A stretch of 64,000 nt of DNA, taken from assembly GCF_000379765.1 (NCBI RefSeq), contig NZ_KB903509.1, positions 62,001 to 126,000 on the forward strand, given 5' to 3'. The notes beneath the pieces were generated by a model. That model made no database searches. It saw only the letters and a list, made by a program, of their open reading frames with translations, and was not told the origin of the DNA. The translations under genes and the position numbers were made by a program. Source of the stretch: Flexithrix dorotheae DSM 6795. Lineage in GTDB: Bacteria > Bacteroidota > Bacteroidia > Cytophagales > Flammeovirgaceae. The first letter of the stretch is position 1. Every line of letters begins with the position of its first letter. Below are positions 4,576-11,546 of this stretch, piece after piece.

Positions 4576-4600
4576 TACGTATTTTACGTAAATTTACGTA
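4576..4600. promoter_or_regulatory. Triple TACGTA array upstream of the globin gene
   Basis: Three copies of the palindrome TACGTA at 4576, 4585 and 4595, about one helical turn apart, each inside a wider ACGT-centred AT-rich context. The same hexamer is clustered six times upstream of the nitrate porin (5492-5607). It is read as a regulator binding array; the protein is unknown. The rest of 4154-4789 (about 190 bases between the array and the globin start, and the stretch before it) holds no other element that I can support. Confidence 0.55.
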
Positions 4601-4789
4601 ATTACAATTTTTTTTTATTATATTGCTGTGGCATCCTTATCACAAAACCTTTTTGTTTGATTATTCCTAATCAGACTATTTCCACTTTCACCTTAAGTTA
4701 ACTTCAGGAATCTCTACTGGAGATTCCTGATTGTTTGCTTTCAAGAAACACTTTTCAATCTATTTCTTTAAACTAATCTTTTAAAACAA

Positions 4790-5200
4790 ATGACTGAAAA
4801 ACAAAAAGTGATGGTTCAAGCCTCTTTCGCTAAAGTAGAACCAATTGCCGATCAGGCTGCTGAAATTTTCTATGGGAAATTATTTGAATTGGACCCTTCC
4901 CTACAACCTTTATTCAAATCTGATATCAAAAGTCAGGGCAGGAAACTGATGACAATGATAAAAGCTGCTGTGGCCGGACTGGATGACTTGGGAACCTTGG
5001 TACCCGTTGTGCAAAACCTTGGCAAAAGACATGTCGGTTATGGCGTGCCTGAGAGTAGTTATAAAACGGTTGGGGAAGCTCTAATCTTTACCCTTGGAGC
5101 CGGATTAGGTGAGGATTTTACAGAGGAAGTAAAAGCCGCCTGGGTTGAAGTTTATGGTGTATTATCCTCAACTATGATCGCAGCATCAAATTATTCCTGA
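4790..5200 (+). CDS. Single-domain haemoglobin
   Basis: 136-residue globin of the Vitreoscilla/flavohaemoglobin type without the reductase half. Proximal haem ligand His81 (in GKRHVGYGV), a distal-pocket Gln49 candidate, and the ESSYKTVGEAL segment after it are typical. Such proteins bind O2 and NO in the cytoplasm; NO dioxygenation would need an external reductase. It is monocistronic with its own terminator. The shared TACGTA array links its control to the nitrate-uptake operon that follows, so a role in NO or nitrite stress from nitrate metabolism is a fair inference. Confidence 0.93.
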   Translation: MTEKQKVMVQASFAKVEPIADQAAEIFYGKLFELDPSLQPLFKSDIKSQGRKLMTMIKAAVAGLDDLGTLVPVVQNLGKRHVGYGVPESSYKTVGEALIFTLGAGLGEDFTEEVKAAWVEVYGVLSSTMIAASNYS

Positions 5201-5227
5201 TAAATGAAAAGGAAATAAGCATTAACC

Positions 5228-5259
5228 AATCCGGCATTAGAAATGCCGGATTTTTTTTG
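5228..5259 (+). terminator. Terminator of the globin gene
   Basis: Stem AATCCGGCATT (5228-5238) with AATGCCGGATT (5242-5252), followed by T8. The CCGGCATT/AATGCCGG core recurs in the hairpins at 11707-11723 and, in looser form, 11807-11823. Confidence 0.9.
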
Positions 5260-5491
5260 TCATAAATAGTGCTTCCTGACTACAAATCACCAAAAGGAGA
5301 GTTCGTTTGGCCGATTTGCATAAACAAATAACTAATGGTATGGGTAGACTCTCCAATTTCCTTTCCCTCTTTTTTAGTTAACTACTTCAAATCAGCTAGT
5401 ATTTTGACAAGAAACTTAAAAGGCACTGAATATACCTCACTTCTAATTTCCCTTCCACTCTAATAACTACTACTTATTTGGACTCAAAAAC

Positions 5492-5607
5492 TACGTAATA
5501 AAACTACGTAAAAAATAAGTAATTGATACTATTTTACGTATTTTAAGCATATTTTTACGTAAATTTACTTGCTTTTTAAATTCTATTACGTACTTTTGAA
5601 TTACGTA
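5492..5607. promoter_or_regulatory. Six-copy TACGTA array upstream of the nitrate-uptake operon
   Basis: TACGTA occurs at 5492, 5505, 5535, 5556, 5587 and 5602. One copy overlaps the -7 box of the predicted promoter (5591-5598) and others lie upstream, as expected of sites for a DNA-binding regulator. From base composition a copy is expected only about once in 3 kb, so six in 116 bases is a real cluster. 5260-5490 shows no gene. Confidence 0.6.
5568..5598 (+). promoter_or_regulatory. Bacteroidota-type promoter for the nitrate porin operon
   Basis: -33 box CTTG (5568-5571), 19-base spacer, -7 box TACTTTTG (5591-5598), matching the TTTG/TAnnTTTG consensus of the Bacteroidota major sigma factor. 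Transcription would start near 5605, leaving a leader of about 190 bases before the porin ATG. Confidence 0.5.
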
Positions 5608-5797
5608 ATATTACTAAATACAAAAAACCATTACGAGGAGAAAACAAACAGGGTAAAACCCAGGATGTAAATTGAAAATGACAAACTAGCAATTTCAACA
5701 AAAATTAAAGCTCAATTAAAAACATTATGAACAGTCTTAGCCCTAAAAAATCTAGCAATTAGAATCAAAATCGGGAAAGACATAAAATATTACTGAT

Positions 5798-7087
5798 ATG
5801 AAATTATTTGTACGAATCATCCAAGTTTGCCTCTTTTTAATGTGTATAAATGCCAGTGGAGCATTTGCCCAGTTTTCTGTAGTTGGTGAAATCCGACCCA
5901 GATTTGAATACAGGAATGGTTTTAAAAAGCCAATTGCGGAGGGACAGGATCCGGCAGCTTTTGTGGAACAGCGTTCAAGGCTATATTTTAATTACCTGGG
6001 TGAAAAATTTAAATTCAAATTATCTTTACAGGATGTGAGAATCTGGGGAAATGCAGCTCAGATTTACAAAACCGACCCTTCTCTTAACAACGTATATGAG
6101 GCCTGGGGTTCCTATGCTATTTCAGGAAAGTCAAGTATCATGGCTGGTAGAATGGAACTGGATTATGACAATGCCAGATTCCTTGGAAACCTTGGCTGGG
6201 CAGCTCAGGGAAGAAGCCACGATGCTATTAAATATGTTTATAAAAATGATACCACCGGAATAGAATTCCATGTGGGTGCAGCATTTAACCAAAACGTACC
6301 ATTCGAACCAGGAAAATTAACTTCCACTTTTTATTCTGATGTAAATAACTACAAGACAATGCAATACGCCTGGTTTCATAAAGAAATTTCAGGAGGAGGC
6401 CTTTCCTTCATGATTTTCAATGATGGAAGACAGGCACTGAATACTACTTCAGATTCTACTGATGTGTTCTTCAGACAAACCTATGCTTTTTATGGCAAGA
6501 AAAAATTAGGCAGTGTCGGACTAGAGGGGGAATTATATTATCAGGGCGGTAAGAATGCTGCCGGAAATGACGTGAGTGCGGCCTTAATCGCCTTGAATGC
6601 GACTTTTAAAACTAAAATCACCCCATTAACCATCGGATTTGATTACCTGACAGGAACTGCTGCTGGAGATTCTAAGGACAAATCTTTCGCACCTTTGTAT
6701 GGAACGAACCACAAATTCTACGGATTCATGGATTATTTCTACGTAGGAAATCCACACATGAATAAAGGATTGGTTAACCCGTACTTAAAAACCAATTTCA
6801 AATTAGGAGGCAAATCAAATTTGATCGCACATATACACTATTTCCAGTCTGCTGTAGGAATTACCAATACGGAAACGGGTGAAGACTTATCCAAAACGCT
6901 TGGTCAGGAAATTGACCTGGTATATAACTTAAATCTTGGAAAAGAGGTCAACCTTAAGGTCGGTTATTCTCAAATGTTTGCCTCGGAATCAATGGAATAC
7001 GTAAAAAGTGTGGCTAATGCCAAAGGTTCTAATAACTGGGCCTGGGTAATGTTAACCATCAAGCCAACTTTATTCACTTCAAAATAA
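5798..7087 (+). CDS. Alginate-export-family outer-membrane porin, probably for nitrate
   Basis: 429 residues with a signal peptide (cleavage after ASGAFAQ, about 25) and then alternating amphipathic strands typical of a beta-barrel. The opening FSVVGEIRPRFEYRNGF, AFVEQRSRLYFNY and LQDVRIWG resemble the alginate_exp (PF13372-type) barrel family. It is first in an operon with NrtA/B/C/D-like genes, 107 bases upstream of the binding protein, so it is likely the outer-membrane entry route for nitrate (inference; alginate is unlikely because no polysaccharide genes are near). Preceded by the TACGTA array and the promoter at 5568-5598. Confidence 0.8.
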   Translation: MKLFVRIIQVCLFLMCINASGAFAQFSVVGEIRPRFEYRNGFKKPIAEGQDPAAFVEQRSRLYFNYLGEKFKFKLSLQDVRIWGNAAQIYKTDPSLNNVYEAWGSYAISGKSSIMAGRMELDYDNARFLGNLGWAAQGRSHDAIKYVYKNDTTGIEFHVGAAFNQNVPFEPGKLTSTFYSDVNNYKTMQYAWFHKEISGGGLSFMIFNDGRQALNTTSDSTDVFFRQTYAFYGKKKLGSVGLEGELYYQGGKNAAGNDVSAALIALNATFKTKITPLTIGFDYLTGTAAGDSKDKSFAPLYGTNHKFYGFMDYFYVGNPHMNKGLVNPYLKTNFKLGGKSNLIAHIHYFQSAVGITNTETGEDLSKTLGQEIDLVYNLNLGKEVNLKVGYSQMFASESMEYVKSVANAKGSNNWAWVMLTIKPTLFTSK

Positions 7088-7194: not shown

Positions 7195-8580
7195 ATGAAA
7201 AAATTACAAATAACCTCCATTATTTGGTTAACAGCCCTTTGCCTGATCATTTCATGTAGTGGCAAAAAACAACCTGAAGTTTCCCAGGCAACCGTTGCTC
7301 CTGAACTTTCAGGGTTAGAATTAGAAAAGGAAGAATTGAAGTTTGGATTCATCAAACTGACGGATATGGCGCCATTGGCCATTGCAAAAGAGAAAGGATT
7401 TTTTGAAGATGAAGGACTTTACGTAACCCTTGAAGCTCAGGCCAACTGGAAGGTTTTATTAGACAGGGTAATTTCAGGAGAACTGGATGGAGCTCATATG
7501 TTGGCTGGACAGCCGATTGGAGCAACTATCGGATTTGGAACAAAAGCTGCCATCGTAACACCGTTTAGTATGGATTTAAATGGAAACGGGATTACAGTTT
7601 CCAACGAAATATGGGAACAAATGAAGCCCAATGTTCCAATGGAGGGCGGAAAACCTGTGCATCCTATTAAAGCAGATGCGATTAAGCCTGTAATTGAGGA
7701 ATACAAGAGAAATGGAAAGCCTTTTAATATGGGAATGGTATTCCCGGTTTCTACACATAACTATGAAATCAGATACTGGTTAGCAGCTGCAGGAATTTCC
7801 CCTGGTTATTATACTGAATCAGATATTACAGGAACAACGGATGCAGAGGTTTTACTTTCAGTTACTCCTCCTCCACAAATGCCAGCCACTATGGAAGCTG
7901 GAACTATTTTAGGATACTGTGTAGGAGAACCATGGAACCAACAAGCGGTATTTAAAGGAATTGGTGTGCCAGTCACTACGAATTATGACATCTGGAAAAA
8001 CAATCCTGAAAAAGTATTTGGATTGAGTAAAGAATGGGCTGACAAGAACCCCAACACCATGGTAGCGATTACAAAAGCATTAATCAGGGCTGGAAAATGG
8101 CTGGATGAGAACAATGGAGCCAACAGAGAAGAAGCTGTGAAAATTCTTTCAAAATCAGAATATGTAGGTGCTGACTATGAGGTAATTGCCAACAGTATGA
8201 CTGGAACTTTCGAATTCGAAAAAGGAGATAAAAGACAAATGCCTGATTTCAATGTATTCTTCAGATATCACGCAACTTATCCTTATTACAGTGATGCAGT
8301 TTGGTTTTTAACCCAAATGAGAAGATGGGGGCAAATCACAGAGCCAAAATCCAACGACTGGTACATTAGTACTGCAAAAGAGATCTACCTGCCAGAAGTT
8401 TGGATGAAAGCCGCCAAATTATTACAAGAAGAAGGACATCTTTCTGCTGAGGAAATACCAAGTACTGATGGATTCAAAACTCCAACTGCAGATTTTATTG
8501 ATGGAGTAGAGTATGATGCGAAAGATCCAAATGGTTACCTCAATAAATTTACCGTGGGACTTAAAGATCCTGTACAATAA
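7195..8580 (+). CDS. nrtA: Nitrate ABC transporter substrate-binding lipoprotein (NrtA/CmpA type)
   Basis: 461 residues. The signal peptide ends [11 protein letters not shown], so Cys21 is the lipidation site and the protein is membrane-anchored. The core shows the NrtA/CmpA family marks: [21 protein letters not shown] at the start of the fold, [16 protein letters not shown], and [13 protein letters not shown] in the second lobe. Length is close to cyanobacterial NrtA. The family binds nitrate/nitrite or bicarbonate; with paired NrtC/NrtD-like ATPases, nitrate is more likely. A cyanate or taurine relative is less likely because those binding proteins are shorter. Confidence 0.88.
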
Positions 8581-8700: not shown

Positions 8701-9723
8701 ATGAAAACTATTGCTATAAAAGTATTGACCTTTACCGGAATGCGATGGGGCGTTCCATTTATCAAACTTTTCTCCGGAGAAGAAGCAAAAACCCAACTCA
8801 AAGAAATTGGCCAGACAGTGGGTATTCCACTTGCAGCCATTGTCACTTTCCTTTTTTTATGGTCTGTAACTGCTTCCCAAATTGAAACTTCTTTAGGGGC
8901 TGTACCAGGACCAATTCAGGTAGCAGAGCAAGCCAAATCCCTTTGGATAGAACACGTAGAAGAAAGGGCTAAAGCCGATGCTTTCTACGAAAGACAAGAA
9001 ATTAGAAATGCAGCAAAATTGGCTAAAAACCCAGCTGCAACTGTAAAAATTATAGATTATACAGGAAAGCCAACTTATTGGGACCAAATCATCACCAGCC
9101 TGAAAACTGTATTTATGGGCTTCGTAATCGCATCTTTAATTGCACTTCCAATTGGAGTTTTATGTGGATTAAGTAAAAATGCCATGCAGGCCATGAGCCC
9201 CATCATTCAGGTTTTCAAACCAGTTTCCCCACTGGCTTGGCTGCCCATTGTAACCATGATTGTGAGTGCGGTTTATGTAACCAATGACGGTTTCTTTGAA
9301 AAATCATTTATCATTTCCGCCATTACCGTTTCACTGTGTTCCTTGTGGGCCACTTTAATTAACACCTCGCTTGGAGTGTCTTCAGTGAATAAGGATTATA
9401 TTAATGTAGCCAGGGTACTACAACTTTCTCCAATGAAAAAGACCTTTAAAATTGTATTACCAGCAACTTTACCACTAATATTTACCGGTTTAAGGATTTC
9501 CCTTGGGGTTGGATGGATGGTATTGATTGCTGCGGAAATGCTTGCCCAAAACCCCGGGTTAGGCAAGTTTGTTTGGGATGAATTCCAAAATGGTAGCAGT
9601 AATTCCCTTGCCAGAATTATGGTAGCAGTATTCACTGTGGGAATCATCGGATTTTTCTTGGATAGAATAATGGTTGCCCTGCAAAAAGCTGTAAGTTTTG
9701 ATAAAGGTGCTGTAGTGGCATAA
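8701..9723 (+). CDS. nrtB: Nitrate ABC transporter permease (NrtB type)
   Basis: 340 residues with about six membrane helices: one near 38-56, a long periplasmic-like insert (residues 65-120, rich in charged residues), then five more. The EAA coupling loop is visible around [22 protein letters not shown], as in binding-protein-dependent permeases. [19 protein letters not shown] is characteristic of the NrtB/SsuC/TauC class. It is the only permease in the operon, so the channel is likely a homodimer driven by the two different ATPases that follow. Confidence 0.88.
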
Positions 9724-9767: not shown

Positions 9768-10649
9768 ATGGCTTTTTTAGAACTTAATAATGTAAGCAAA
9801 GGATACGGTGAAGGAAAGAACAGAACCGAGGTTTTGCGCAACATCAATTTACATATAAATGAAGGAGAGTTTGTGGCAATTGTTGGCTTTACAGGAAGTG
9901 GCAAGACTACATTAGTATCCCTGATTAACGGATTACTTATGCCTGACCAGGGGGAAGTATTATTTAAAGGAGAGCCCATTACCGGTCCCGGACATGAAAG
10001 AGGTGTGATATTCCAAAATTACTCATTACTACCCTGGTTTACTGTTTTTCAAAATGTGGTGCTGGCCGTGGATGAAGTTTTTCCTCACATGTCGAAAGCA
10101 GATAAGGAACAACATGTAAAGAAATATGTGGAAATGGTAAACCTCACCCCGGCTTTAGAAAAAAGGCCTGCTGAACTCAGTGGAGGTATGCGACAAAGGG
10201 TGGCAGTTGCCCGGGCCCTGGCCATGAATCCGGAAATGTTAATCATGGATGAACCGCTAAGTGCCCTGGATGCTTTAACACGGGGTACCCTTCAGGAGGA
10301 AATCATCAAAATCTGGGATGAAAATAAAAGAACAGCTTTATTAATCACCAATGATGTAGATGAAGGAATTTTAATGGCTGATAGAATTATTCCGCTCAAC
10401 CCCGGACCAAATGCTACCCTGGGGCCTGAATTTGAAATCAATATTGAAAGGCCAAGGGATAAAACTGCTTTGAACTCTAATGATGATTTCAAAAAAACCA
10501 GAAACGAAATTATTGAATACTTGATGGATATTGGAACAGAAGCAAAAACCAAAAAGATCAATAACTATACTCTACCGGATTTGAAACCCATCATGCCTGG
10601 TAAAATATTCAAAAAAAGGACTGAAAAAGACCGGTTGAAATATTTCTAA
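9768..10649 (+). CDS. nrtC: Nitrate ABC transporter ATPase 1 (NrtC-like, degenerate H-loop)
   Basis: 293-residue nucleotide-binding protein. Walker [10 protein letters not shown] (about 44-52), Q-loop in [11 protein letters not shown], canonical signature LSGGMRQRV, Walker [13 protein letters not shown]. The switch (H-loop) reads [10 protein letters not shown]: Asn195 stands where ABC ATPases normally have His. Unlike cyanobacterial NrtC it has no C-terminal NrtA-like regulatory domain, only about 90 extra residues ending in a basic tail. 44 bases after the permease and 75 before the second ATPase, in one operon. Confidence 0.87.
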
Positions 10650-10724: not shown

Positions 10725-11546
10725 ATGGAAAATATAGCAATAAATGAGGAAATAAGCATCAATTCGGAATCAAAACCCGGAGAAGTGATGCTGGATATCC
10801 AAAGCCTTAAAAAAGTCTACCCTACTCCCAAGGGCGATTATGTAGTATTGGAAAACCTGGATTTACAGGTAAAAAAGGAGGAATTTATTTCCATCATTGG
10901 TCACTCTGGTTGTGGAAAATCGACTTTACTGACCATGATTGCCGGATTAAACCCCATTTCGGGCGGGCAAATTTTACTTGACGAAAAGCCCATCACCAGT
11001 CCTGGGCCGGATAGAGGAGTGGTATTCCAATCCCCATCCCTTTTTCCCTGGATGACTGCTTTGGAAAATGTGTTATTGGGAGTAGAACAAGTATTTCCCC
11101 AAGGTACAAAAGAACAAAGAATTGATATTTGTAAATACTATCTGGATAAAGTAGGGTTAGGCGATTCCTTTCATAAAAAGGCATCTGATCTTTCCCAGGG
11201 TATGCAACAACGGGTGGGAATTGCCAGAGCGTTTGCCTTAAAACCTAAAATACTGCTTTTGGACGAACCATTTGGAATGTTGGATTCCCTTACCAGAGCC
11301 GAACTTCAGGATGTATTGTTGGAAGTATGGAATCAGGAAAATATTACCGCCATTATGATTACCCACGATGTGGATGAATCCATTTTCTTAGCCGACCGGG
11401 TAATTATGATGACTTCCGGACCTTACGCCAAAGTGGGTGATATTCTAAGCATCCCGTTAGAAAGACCCAGAGATAGAAGAAGTGTTTTGGAACATCCGGA
11501 TTATTATAGTTATAGAGAATACCTGATTAACTTTCTGGAGCATTAA
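10725..11546 (+). CDS. nrtD: Nitrate ABC transporter ATPase 2 (NrtD-like)
   Basis: 273 residues. Walker A GHSGCGKST, Q-loop VVFQSPSLFPW, signature LSQGMQQRV (Gly to Gln at the third position), Walker B LLLDEPFGMLD, normal H-loop MITHDVDES. It is paired with the ATPase at 9768-10649, which has the reverse pattern (good signature, altered H-loop). It is the last gene of the operon; a terminator follows at 11667. No nitrate or nitrite reductase gene is in the window. Confidence 0.87.
   Translation: MENIAINEEISINSESKPGEVMLDIQSLKKVYPTPKGDYVVLENLDLQVKKEEFISIIGHSGCGKSTLLTMIAGLNPISGGQILLDEKPITSPGPDRGVVFQSPSLFPWMTALENVLLGVEQVFPQGTKEQRIDICKYYLDKVGLGDSFHKKASDLSQGMQQRVGIARAFALKPKILLLDEPFGMLDSLTRAELQDVLLEVWNQENITAIMITHDVDESIFLADRVIMMTSGPYAKVGDILSIPLERPRDRRSVLEHPDYYSYREYLINFLEH

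Follow-up and report, generated by a model that had tools for sequence, protein, structure and literature searches.

TACGTA arrays upstream of globin and nitrate-uptake genes in Flexithrix as predicted operators of a NarX/NarL-type two-component system of Bacteroidota

Genes and TACGTA arrays of the window

The window analyzed here is a stretch of 64,000 nucleotides from the genome of Flexithrix dorotheae DSM 6795. It contains a single-domain globin gene followed on the same strand by a nitrate-uptake operon, and the word TACGTA is repeated before both. The features of this region are given below with their positions in the window.

4576..4600 (no strand): globin-side array, TACGTA three times at 4576, 4585 and 4595 (25 bp)
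4585-4600: full paired site TACGTA-AATT-TACGTA, formed by the last two TACGTA of the globin-side array
4790..5200 (+): single-domain globin, 136 aa (PF00042, E 1.6e-17)
5492..5607 (no strand): porin-side array, TACGTA six times at 5492, 5505, 5535, 5556, 5587 and 5602 (116 bp)
5556..5571 (no strand): paired element TACGTA-AATT-TACTTG (GTA-N4-TAC) within the porin-side array
5591..5598 (+): putative -7 box of the porin promoter, TACTTTTG, overlapping the TACGTA at 5587-5592
5602..5617 (no strand): paired element TACGTA-ATAT-TACTAA (GTA-N4-TAC) on the porin side
5798..7087 (+): outer-membrane porin of the Alginate_exp type (PF13372), first gene of the nitrate-uptake operon
7195..8580 (+): NrtA-like binding protein (NMT1_2, PF13379, E 6.4e-98)
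8701..9723 (+): NrtB-like ABC permease (BPD, PF00528)
9768..10649 (+): ABC-ATPase ORF, NrtC/D-like by context, with relatives in nrt clusters
10725..11546 (+): ABC-ATPase ORF, NrtC/D-like by context, with relatives in nrt clusters

Relatives of the porin adjoin nrt/narK/nasC-like genes in other genomes. The globin matches PF00042 only and has no FAD domain. Its best PDB sequence matches are 3s1i and 3ubc; flavohaemoglobins and Vitreoscilla Hb come lower, after the neuroglobins.

A sequence-only reading of this DNA had reported that TACGTA occurs three times in 25 bp ahead of the globin and six times in 116 bp ahead of the porin, with one of the latter overlapping the -7 box of the porin promoter. 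Our recount of the window agrees with these numbers. The six porin-side copies are spaced by 13, 30, 21, 31 and 15 bases. The -7 box of Bacteroidota-type promoters has the consensus TAnnTTTG, and from its match to this consensus we take TACTTTTG to be the candidate box; the fifth TACGTA does overlap it. The 64-kb window contains 14 copies of the word (three on the globin side, six on the porin side, three within coding sequence of the uptake operon, and two elsewhere) as compared with 3.23 ± 1.70 in dinucleotide shuffles, and none of 100 shuffles reached 14. In G187, a genome of the same genus, a 57-bp stretch including the globin-side array aligned with 79% identity, and the orthologous porin is preceded by four TACGTA sites.

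TACGTA clusters in the genome and the two-component system behind nirBD

The whole genome (9.54 Mb in 101 contigs) contains 405 copies of TACGTA, or one per 23.5 kb. The earlier estimate of about one copy per 3 kb is what base composition predicts (2948 bp), but the real density is below this prediction, and the clustering is therefore more striking than had been claimed. Seventeen close pairs (gap 0-30) were found versus 0.53 expected from 405 independent sites. They make up nine clusters, which are located at the following genes.

Contig C91: cobA (tetrapyrrole methylase) / nirB-nirD
Contig C80: nasC-like gene (molybdopterin oxidoreductase with a fused NirB-like NAD(P)H/FAD module)
Contig C80: NarK-family transporter gene adjoining the nasC-like gene
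Contig C14: second NarK-like MFS gene, one of the three sites lying inside its first codons
Window: porin-nrt operon, and globin
Contig C58 (L023:8560-8575): gnd-zwf, with a full TACGTA-N4-TACGTA
Contig C25 (L022:7267-7305): two sites before pyk (pyruvate kinase)
Contig C6 (L020:8340-8364): two sites just before a cas6-like gene (Cas6 family match)

The NCBIfam cut-offs are not reached by the nasC-like gene, for either NasC or formate dehydrogenase, nor by the two narK-like genes for NarK, so these names lean on context. The tightest form, TACGTA-N4-TACGTA, occurs four times in the genome, at globin, narK, nirB and gnd-zwf. If the word had no connection with nitrate, clusters should be equally common before unrelated genes; the genome-wide search gave only nine, mostly at nitrate genes. 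Two clusters, those of pyk and the cas6-like gene, have no nitrate logic. One of the two pyk sites is kept in G187, 69 bp before the orthologue, and the cas6-like pair is possibly due to chance. The full gnd-zwf site is also present in G187 (L199:6152-6167, C302), that is, in both genomes of the genus. The next-closest gnd (G049, 66%) is without a TACGTA site, and 14 of the 25 genomes assigned below to class A gave no gnd match at E ≤ 1e-100. General membership of gnd-zwf in the regulon was not supported, since its site is found only in the two genomes of Flexithrix's genus; the site suggests a genus-level addition by which NADPH supply is tied to nitrate use.

Directly behind nirB-nirD and on the same strand (C91, L025) are the genes of a NarX-like kinase and a NarL/LuxR-type regulator. 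The kinase (601 aa) has PilJ, HisKA_3 and HATPase_c domains, and a PAS match of 25.0 bits, which is under the cut-off of 27. The regulator (229 aa) consists of Response_reg and GerE domains, and its best PDB match is E. coli NarL (1a04, E 3e-35). The N-terminus of the kinase carries NVAGRQRM, which contains G-x-x-R (P-box), described as the nitrate-binding signature of nitrate-sensing kinases (PMC8199190). In the available part of the same account, nitrate-sensing genes of Bacteroidetes are labelled narHK and narRR, and PAS-type and PAS-less groups are separated (PMC8199190).

Eight kinases besides ours were scanned, and PilJ was present in every one of them as well as in ours, that of L099 being below the Pfam cut-off. 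No HAMP or GAF was found in these kinases at E ≤ 0.001; a PAS match appears instead in our kinase, and above the Pfam cut-off in the kinases of L099 and L196. The form G-x-Q-R is present in the aligned kinases except those of G192, whose N-terminus is split off, and the short-aligning kinases of G077 and G036. The system thus shows the features of the PAS-type narHK/narRR group, namely PilJ, no HAMP or GAF, PAS (sub-cut-off in our kinase) and nitrate genes nearby. It also has those of the NarX/NarL type, a PilJ sensor with G-x-x-R and a HisKA_3 kinase paired with a REC and GerE regulator, and lacks the HAMP and GAF-like region between membrane and kinase of NarX/NarQ proper. The arrays had been attributed to an undescribed regulator. 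This stands for the operator, for which we found no description among the literature matches listed, but not for the likely regulator, whose kind is known from the NarX/NarL-type narHK/narRR group (PMC8199190).

A paralogous regulator, 51% identical, is encoded elsewhere in the genome (L363, C1:536018-536635) with the helix RTVQVHRFNIM. No TACGTA was found in the 12 kb around it.

Occurrence in relatives and geometry of the predicted operator

Among 194 genomes of the window's order, 58 have a regulator relative at E ≤ 1e-50 and 68 have nirB; 66 nirB loci were counted, G110 and G120 with fragmentary nirB being left out. TACGTA occurs in the 300 bp before nirB in 23/23 genomes with a full-length-aligned kinase versus 2/43 others. 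The two exceptions were moved to class A: G076 has a full-length kinase at another locus, and G089 has a class-A recognition helix with its kinase beyond the contig end. After this reassignment, TACGTA precedes nirB in 25/25 class-A genomes versus 0/41 others (Fisher 1e-18, kinship not corrected for). Within family f16, which holds both classes, the counts are 10/10 versus 0/5 (p 3e-4, likewise uncorrected for kinship). The nirB promoters of non-A genomes are mostly as AT-rich as those of class A. Each of the 25 class-A genomes has narL within a fetched stretch that also contains nirB, nasC, porin or narK. A tree of 47 regulators and NarL has one branch, with support 96/86, that parts class A from class B. 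Because the classes split once on this tree, the perfect correlation of class and word may depend on a small number of independent events, a problem relieved mainly by family f16 with its two classes.

Class-A promoters of nitrate genes carry the word regularly, with stretches shorter than 60 bp omitted and duplicates merged. At least one site was found before nirB in 25/25, cobA in 14/14, narK in 6/6, porin in 11/12 (the miss, in G193, lies 16 bp behind narK), and nasC in 12/15 (the three misses, in G103, G142 and G192, are not promoters but incomplete frames at the margins of 3-kb loci). The hemA-like gene has a site in 4/7, and crpF, which encodes an FNR/CRP-type regulator, in 4/4 promoters, a count that covers four of the 11 class-A genomes with this gene. 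In the controls, sites precede 29/330 other genes in class-A loci, some of which share the divergent promoter of a target, and 3/143 members of the target families in non-A genomes. Loss of the motif from orthologous upstream regions would have spoken against the sequence-only reading; the nir, nas, nar and porin promoters carry it.

The strict pair TACGTA-N4-TACGTA is present in 22/25 class-A genomes and also in 33/169 others. A hand tally of the 45 strict pairs in class-A genomes placed 28 before recognized members, a number that drops to 21 if crpF, globin and gnd are set aside, and the other 17 elsewhere. Taken by itself, the strict word is therefore not a clean predictor. In three related genomes (L201:6033, L218:6039 and L219:6078), a strict pair lies between RNA-methyltransferase-like and aconitase-like genes, named by eye, and this intergenic site may be a further target. 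In four related genomes of f16 (L075:1501, L076:1501, L077:1501 and L078:1501), a strict pair lies just 3' of the nasC-like frame; the next gene is outside the locus.

A search of contigs gave at least 80 loci, of which nine were examined. Named genomes were scanned as well, and these yielded Catalimonadaceae bacterium JC749 (Cytophagales) and Lewinella sp. JB7 (Saprospirales). A sample of 395 genomes of the phylum added at least 15 further genomes with loci outside the window's order. These further loci were picked by regulator similarity and include several close relatives, and the count was restricted to ORFs preceded by 250 bp or more. Two or more sites precede nirB in 12/12 and the nasC-like gene in 6/7, and one or more precede the C14-type NarK-like MFS gene in 8/8, narL itself in 14/17 and crpF in 8/9. 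Porin (5/15), nrtA (2/7) and narX (1/13) scored poorly, some but not all of them lying inside gene runs, and the control of other ORFs gave 11/91. The Lewinella and G365 loci have 61-63% G+C yet carry arrays; those of L349 (G365) and L233 (Lewinella) are near-identical and not independent. The helix of L362 was missed by the helix search pattern.

A motif-free count also placed TACGTA first among six-letter words in class-A nirB promoters (25/25 versus 3.9 expected from resampling). The word had been read as a single ACGT-centred site; this description does not hold. In class-A promoters, TAC follows TACGTA at gap 4 in 144/512 cases, as compared with 2-38 for each other gap from 0 to 25, and the bases after this TAC are TTA in 60 and GTA in 60, together 120/144. 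In the further loci the gap-4 peak recurs (52/270). From these counts, the predicted operator unit is two facing half-sites TAC(G/T)TA in the arrangement GTA-N4-TAC. Other geometries were tried and rejected. NtcA-type sites are GTA-N8-TAC, and TAC at gap 8 was found in 38/512 versus 144 at gap 4. NarL heptamers have the consensus TACYYMT, and the exact 7-2-7 form TACYYMT-N2-AKRRGTA occurs in 0/66 nirB promoters (exact form only). When TACGTAA-NN-TTACGTA was read as a 7-2-7 site with outer TAC, the partner half-site was found to retain its inner TAC in 144/512 and, much more rarely, its outer GTA (70/512 at the corresponding gap, as compared with 60 full TACGTA).

The regulator classes differ in the recognition helix, which is RT(I/V/A)E-x-HR in class A, RTVDNHR or NTVANQR in class B, and STVKVHVKHM in E. 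coli NarL; the regulator of the window's genome has RTIETHRFNM at this position. The thirteen DNHR-helix genomes have TACTCA as top word (9 versus 1.5 expected). In RTVDNHR genomes, (G/A)AGTA-N4-TACT(C/T)A was found in 9/13 promoters and is absent in four, three of which are close relatives. The gap-4 spacing in both indicates that class A and the RTVDNHR class have the GTA-N4-TAC core in common and diverge in the bases that follow it. TACTCA is present in 6/25 class-A nirB promoters as well, and it leads in group N (19 genomes, class not assigned from the fetched loci) with 10 versus 1.9 expected. In NTVANQR-helix genomes, ACTATG and GTACTA occur in 9/9 (G073, G127, G139, G159, G183, G029, G059, G100 and G114), five of the genomes being congeners, and TACTAT-N2-ATAGTA is present in five of these nirB promoters. 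These words are possibly a third code with 7-2-7-like spacing. The match of helix and word is a correlation on few evolutionary events. As for the kinases of class B, the idea that they are without PilJ was wrong; PilJ was present in 5/5 scanned and PAS in none of the five.

Predicted regulation, globin membership and alternatives

The arrays, the gene set, their conservation, and the linkage and class of the regulator are read directly in the sequences, and together they describe what is, as predicted, a conserved nitrate-response regulon. We consider it highly probable that the TACGTA arrays serve as operators of a nitrate/nitrite-sensing PAS-type narHK-narRR system encoded in the C91 cluster cobA|nirB-nirD-narX-narL. 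The PilJ-type kinase with G-x-x-R would sense nitrate or nitrite and phosphorylate the LuxR-type regulator. The regulator, presumably as a dimer, would bind two half-sites one helical turn apart with the GTA-N4-TAC core, at positions upstream of or overlapping promoters. It probably activates uptake (porin-nrt and the two narK-like transporters) and reduction (nasC-like, nirBD and the siroheme-type methylase cobA). In Flexithrix, the globin would be co-activated and most likely clears NO arising from nitrate/nitrite reduction. We infer the identity of the binder, the nitrate-driven phosphorylation, the direction of control and the NO function of the globin from this arrangement and from known systems.

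The globin is a lineage-variable member of the predicted regulon. Ten class-A genomes encode a globin at least 45% identical, and a link was found in 7/10, by two or more sites in four (the window, G118, G143 and G077). A hemA-like-globin run is preceded by three sites each in G118 and G143, two in G077 and one in G172; in G130 a run of five genes ending in globin has a single site ahead of it, and the globin of G049 is encoded between nirB and nirD. G131, G090 and G163 have no site before the globin. Counted gene by gene, TACGTA within 400 bp before the globin was found for 3/34 globin genes in 30 loci (the window, G049 with the site inside nirB, and one class-B genome). No globin match was found in G187, a genome 84% complete, though the array is kept. 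The arrays show the behaviour of shared regulatory sites, and the proposal that they join the globin to nitrate import is borne out, with membership varying among lineages (7/10).

Two side observations concern the surroundings of the globin. In G187 (L197:5700-6300), the array at the globin position lies between two convergent genes, with flanks that look like transposase remnants by eye. In relatives (L208:6139-8862 and L211:6539-9137), the globin is flanked by a gene that looks hemA-like by eye and, on the other side, by a Tll0287-like gene (PF11845), a recurrent trio.

Several other explanations were weighed. AT-rich intergenic DNA favours TACGTA, and the reversed control word ATGCAT gave 22 close pairs versus the 17 of TACGTA, as might be expected if the clusters were an effect of chance, base composition or restriction sites. 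However, ATGCAT is five times commoner (its pairs come from 1940 copies), TACGTA gave its 17 pairs against 0.5 expected, 0/41 non-A genomes have the word before nirB in similarly AT-rich promoters, and arrays are kept at 61-63% G+C; we regard this explanation as hardly credible. An unrelated co-inherited DNA-binding protein could also be the binder, as correlation alone cannot part the two-component system from another co-inherited factor and the class split occurs once on the tree. This is improbable in view of narL standing beside nitrate genes in 25/25 class-A genomes and having a site in its own promoter in 14/17 further loci, of a recognition helix that changes with the half-site, and of a half-site that starts with TAC like the NarL heptamers.

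The FNR/CRP-type regulator CrpF would be a candidate binder from its position, since crpF adjoins narK, cobA or hemA-like-globin genes in several genomes; its promoters in class A have a TACGTA pair in all four counted, and the protein combines cNMP_binding and HTH_Crp_2. A crpF relative of at least 50% identity (52-100%) is found in only 11/25 class-A genomes, against arrays in 25/25, and the best match in the window's genome is 29%. With 14 of 25 array-bearing class-A genomes lacking such a relative, crpF looks like a target and not the binder, a role we consider very improbable for it. In four class-A genomes (L200:6018, L203:6030, L211:10354 and L217:6407), a paired site precedes a gene of the Crp family whose N-terminus looks Cys-rich and FNR-like by eye, which suggests a second-tier regulator. 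Finally, the array of the globin might serve another purpose, for example its own O2/NO response, and share the word by coincidence. The orthologous globins of G131, G090 and G163 without sites, and the G187 array without a globin match, are what this explanation would predict. It is nevertheless unlikely, given that the globin array holds one of the four full TACGTA-N4-TACGTA in the genome, that the G049 globin lies between nirB and nirD, and that one to three sites precede the globin run in G118, G143, G077 and G172. Control of the globin together with the nitrate genes by the narHK-narRR system is the reading that we prefer.

This system resembles three known ones and the sister class. The PAS-type narHK/narRR of Bacteroidetes (Indibacter cluster, PMC8199190) has the same G-x-x-R P-box, a PAS that precedes the kinase core, no HAMP match, a regulator gene beside or near the kinase, and nitrate genes nearby. 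The DNA site, the regulon, and a link to an NO globin or to NADPH are absent from that account in its available part (PMC8199190) and are predicted here. With E. coli NarX-NarL/NarQ-NarP our system shares the PilJ-type sensor, HisKA_3, REC with a LuxR-type HTH, a TAC-first half-site and two half-sites per 16 bp. The preferred site of E. coli NarL is of the 7-2-7 form and has TAC at both outer ends, TACCCCTAAAGGGGTA (PMC4549865), whereas in our system the constrained TAC occupies the inner position (GTA-N4-TAC), TACGTA is the word, and the helix is RTIETHRFNM instead of STVKVHVKHM. The orientation of the predicted site therefore differs from that of the NarL site described in that source (PMC4549865). 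The sister class B narHK/narRR has the same gene setting, PilJ and GTA-N4-TAC spacing (9/13 RTVDNHR genomes), but its half-site is TACT(C/T)A and not the TAC(G/T)TA of class A, and its helix is RTVDNHR or NTVANQR.

In Bradyrhizobium japonicum, the available part of one report describes narK-bjgb-flp-nasC, in which a single-domain haemoglobin is co-expressed with NarK and the assimilatory nitrate reductase and acts in NO detoxification (PMC4724949). Because of this precedent (PMC4724949), NO removal is our best guess for the globin and is probably its function, by analogy. Both systems tie a single-domain globin to nitrate assimilation, but the Bradyrhizobium set is under NasS-NasT and forms one gene cluster with nasC (PMC4724949), whereas the sites described here accompany a NarL-type regulator, and in this genome no single operon contains both the globin and the nasC-like gene.

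Regulators of this kind are known. In the open-access literature, among the matches listed, we found no account of TACGTA as a nitrate site of Bacteroidota, and none of this operator, the apparent change of specificity between the sister regulators, or the membership of globin and gnd-zwf; as the sequence-only reading had supposed, no named Bacteroidota regulator with this motif came up in the same matches. On balance, we favour the view that a nitrate code extends over several Bacteroidota orders, in which the GTA-N4-TAC geometry is common to both classes, PAS-type narRR reading TAC(G/T)TA and the sister clade TACT(C/T)A. One helix change (D-N to E-x) would have recoded the operators throughout entire nitrate regulons, in the window's order as well as in other orders and in Saprospirales, and individual lineages would have added an NO-removing globin, an FNR-type second regulator and the NADPH-producing gnd-zwf pair.

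For the PAS-type narHK/narRR group, a DNA code and its target genes are now predicted, as is a different code for a sister class. With codes predicted for both classes, binding, nitrate response and the specificity switch are therefore testable with two proteins and two oligonucleotides. TACGTA is a simple word for spotting nitrate regulons in Bacteroidota genomes. After Bradyrhizobium, this is a second lineage where an NO-type globin and the genes of nitrate assimilation are apparently wired together.
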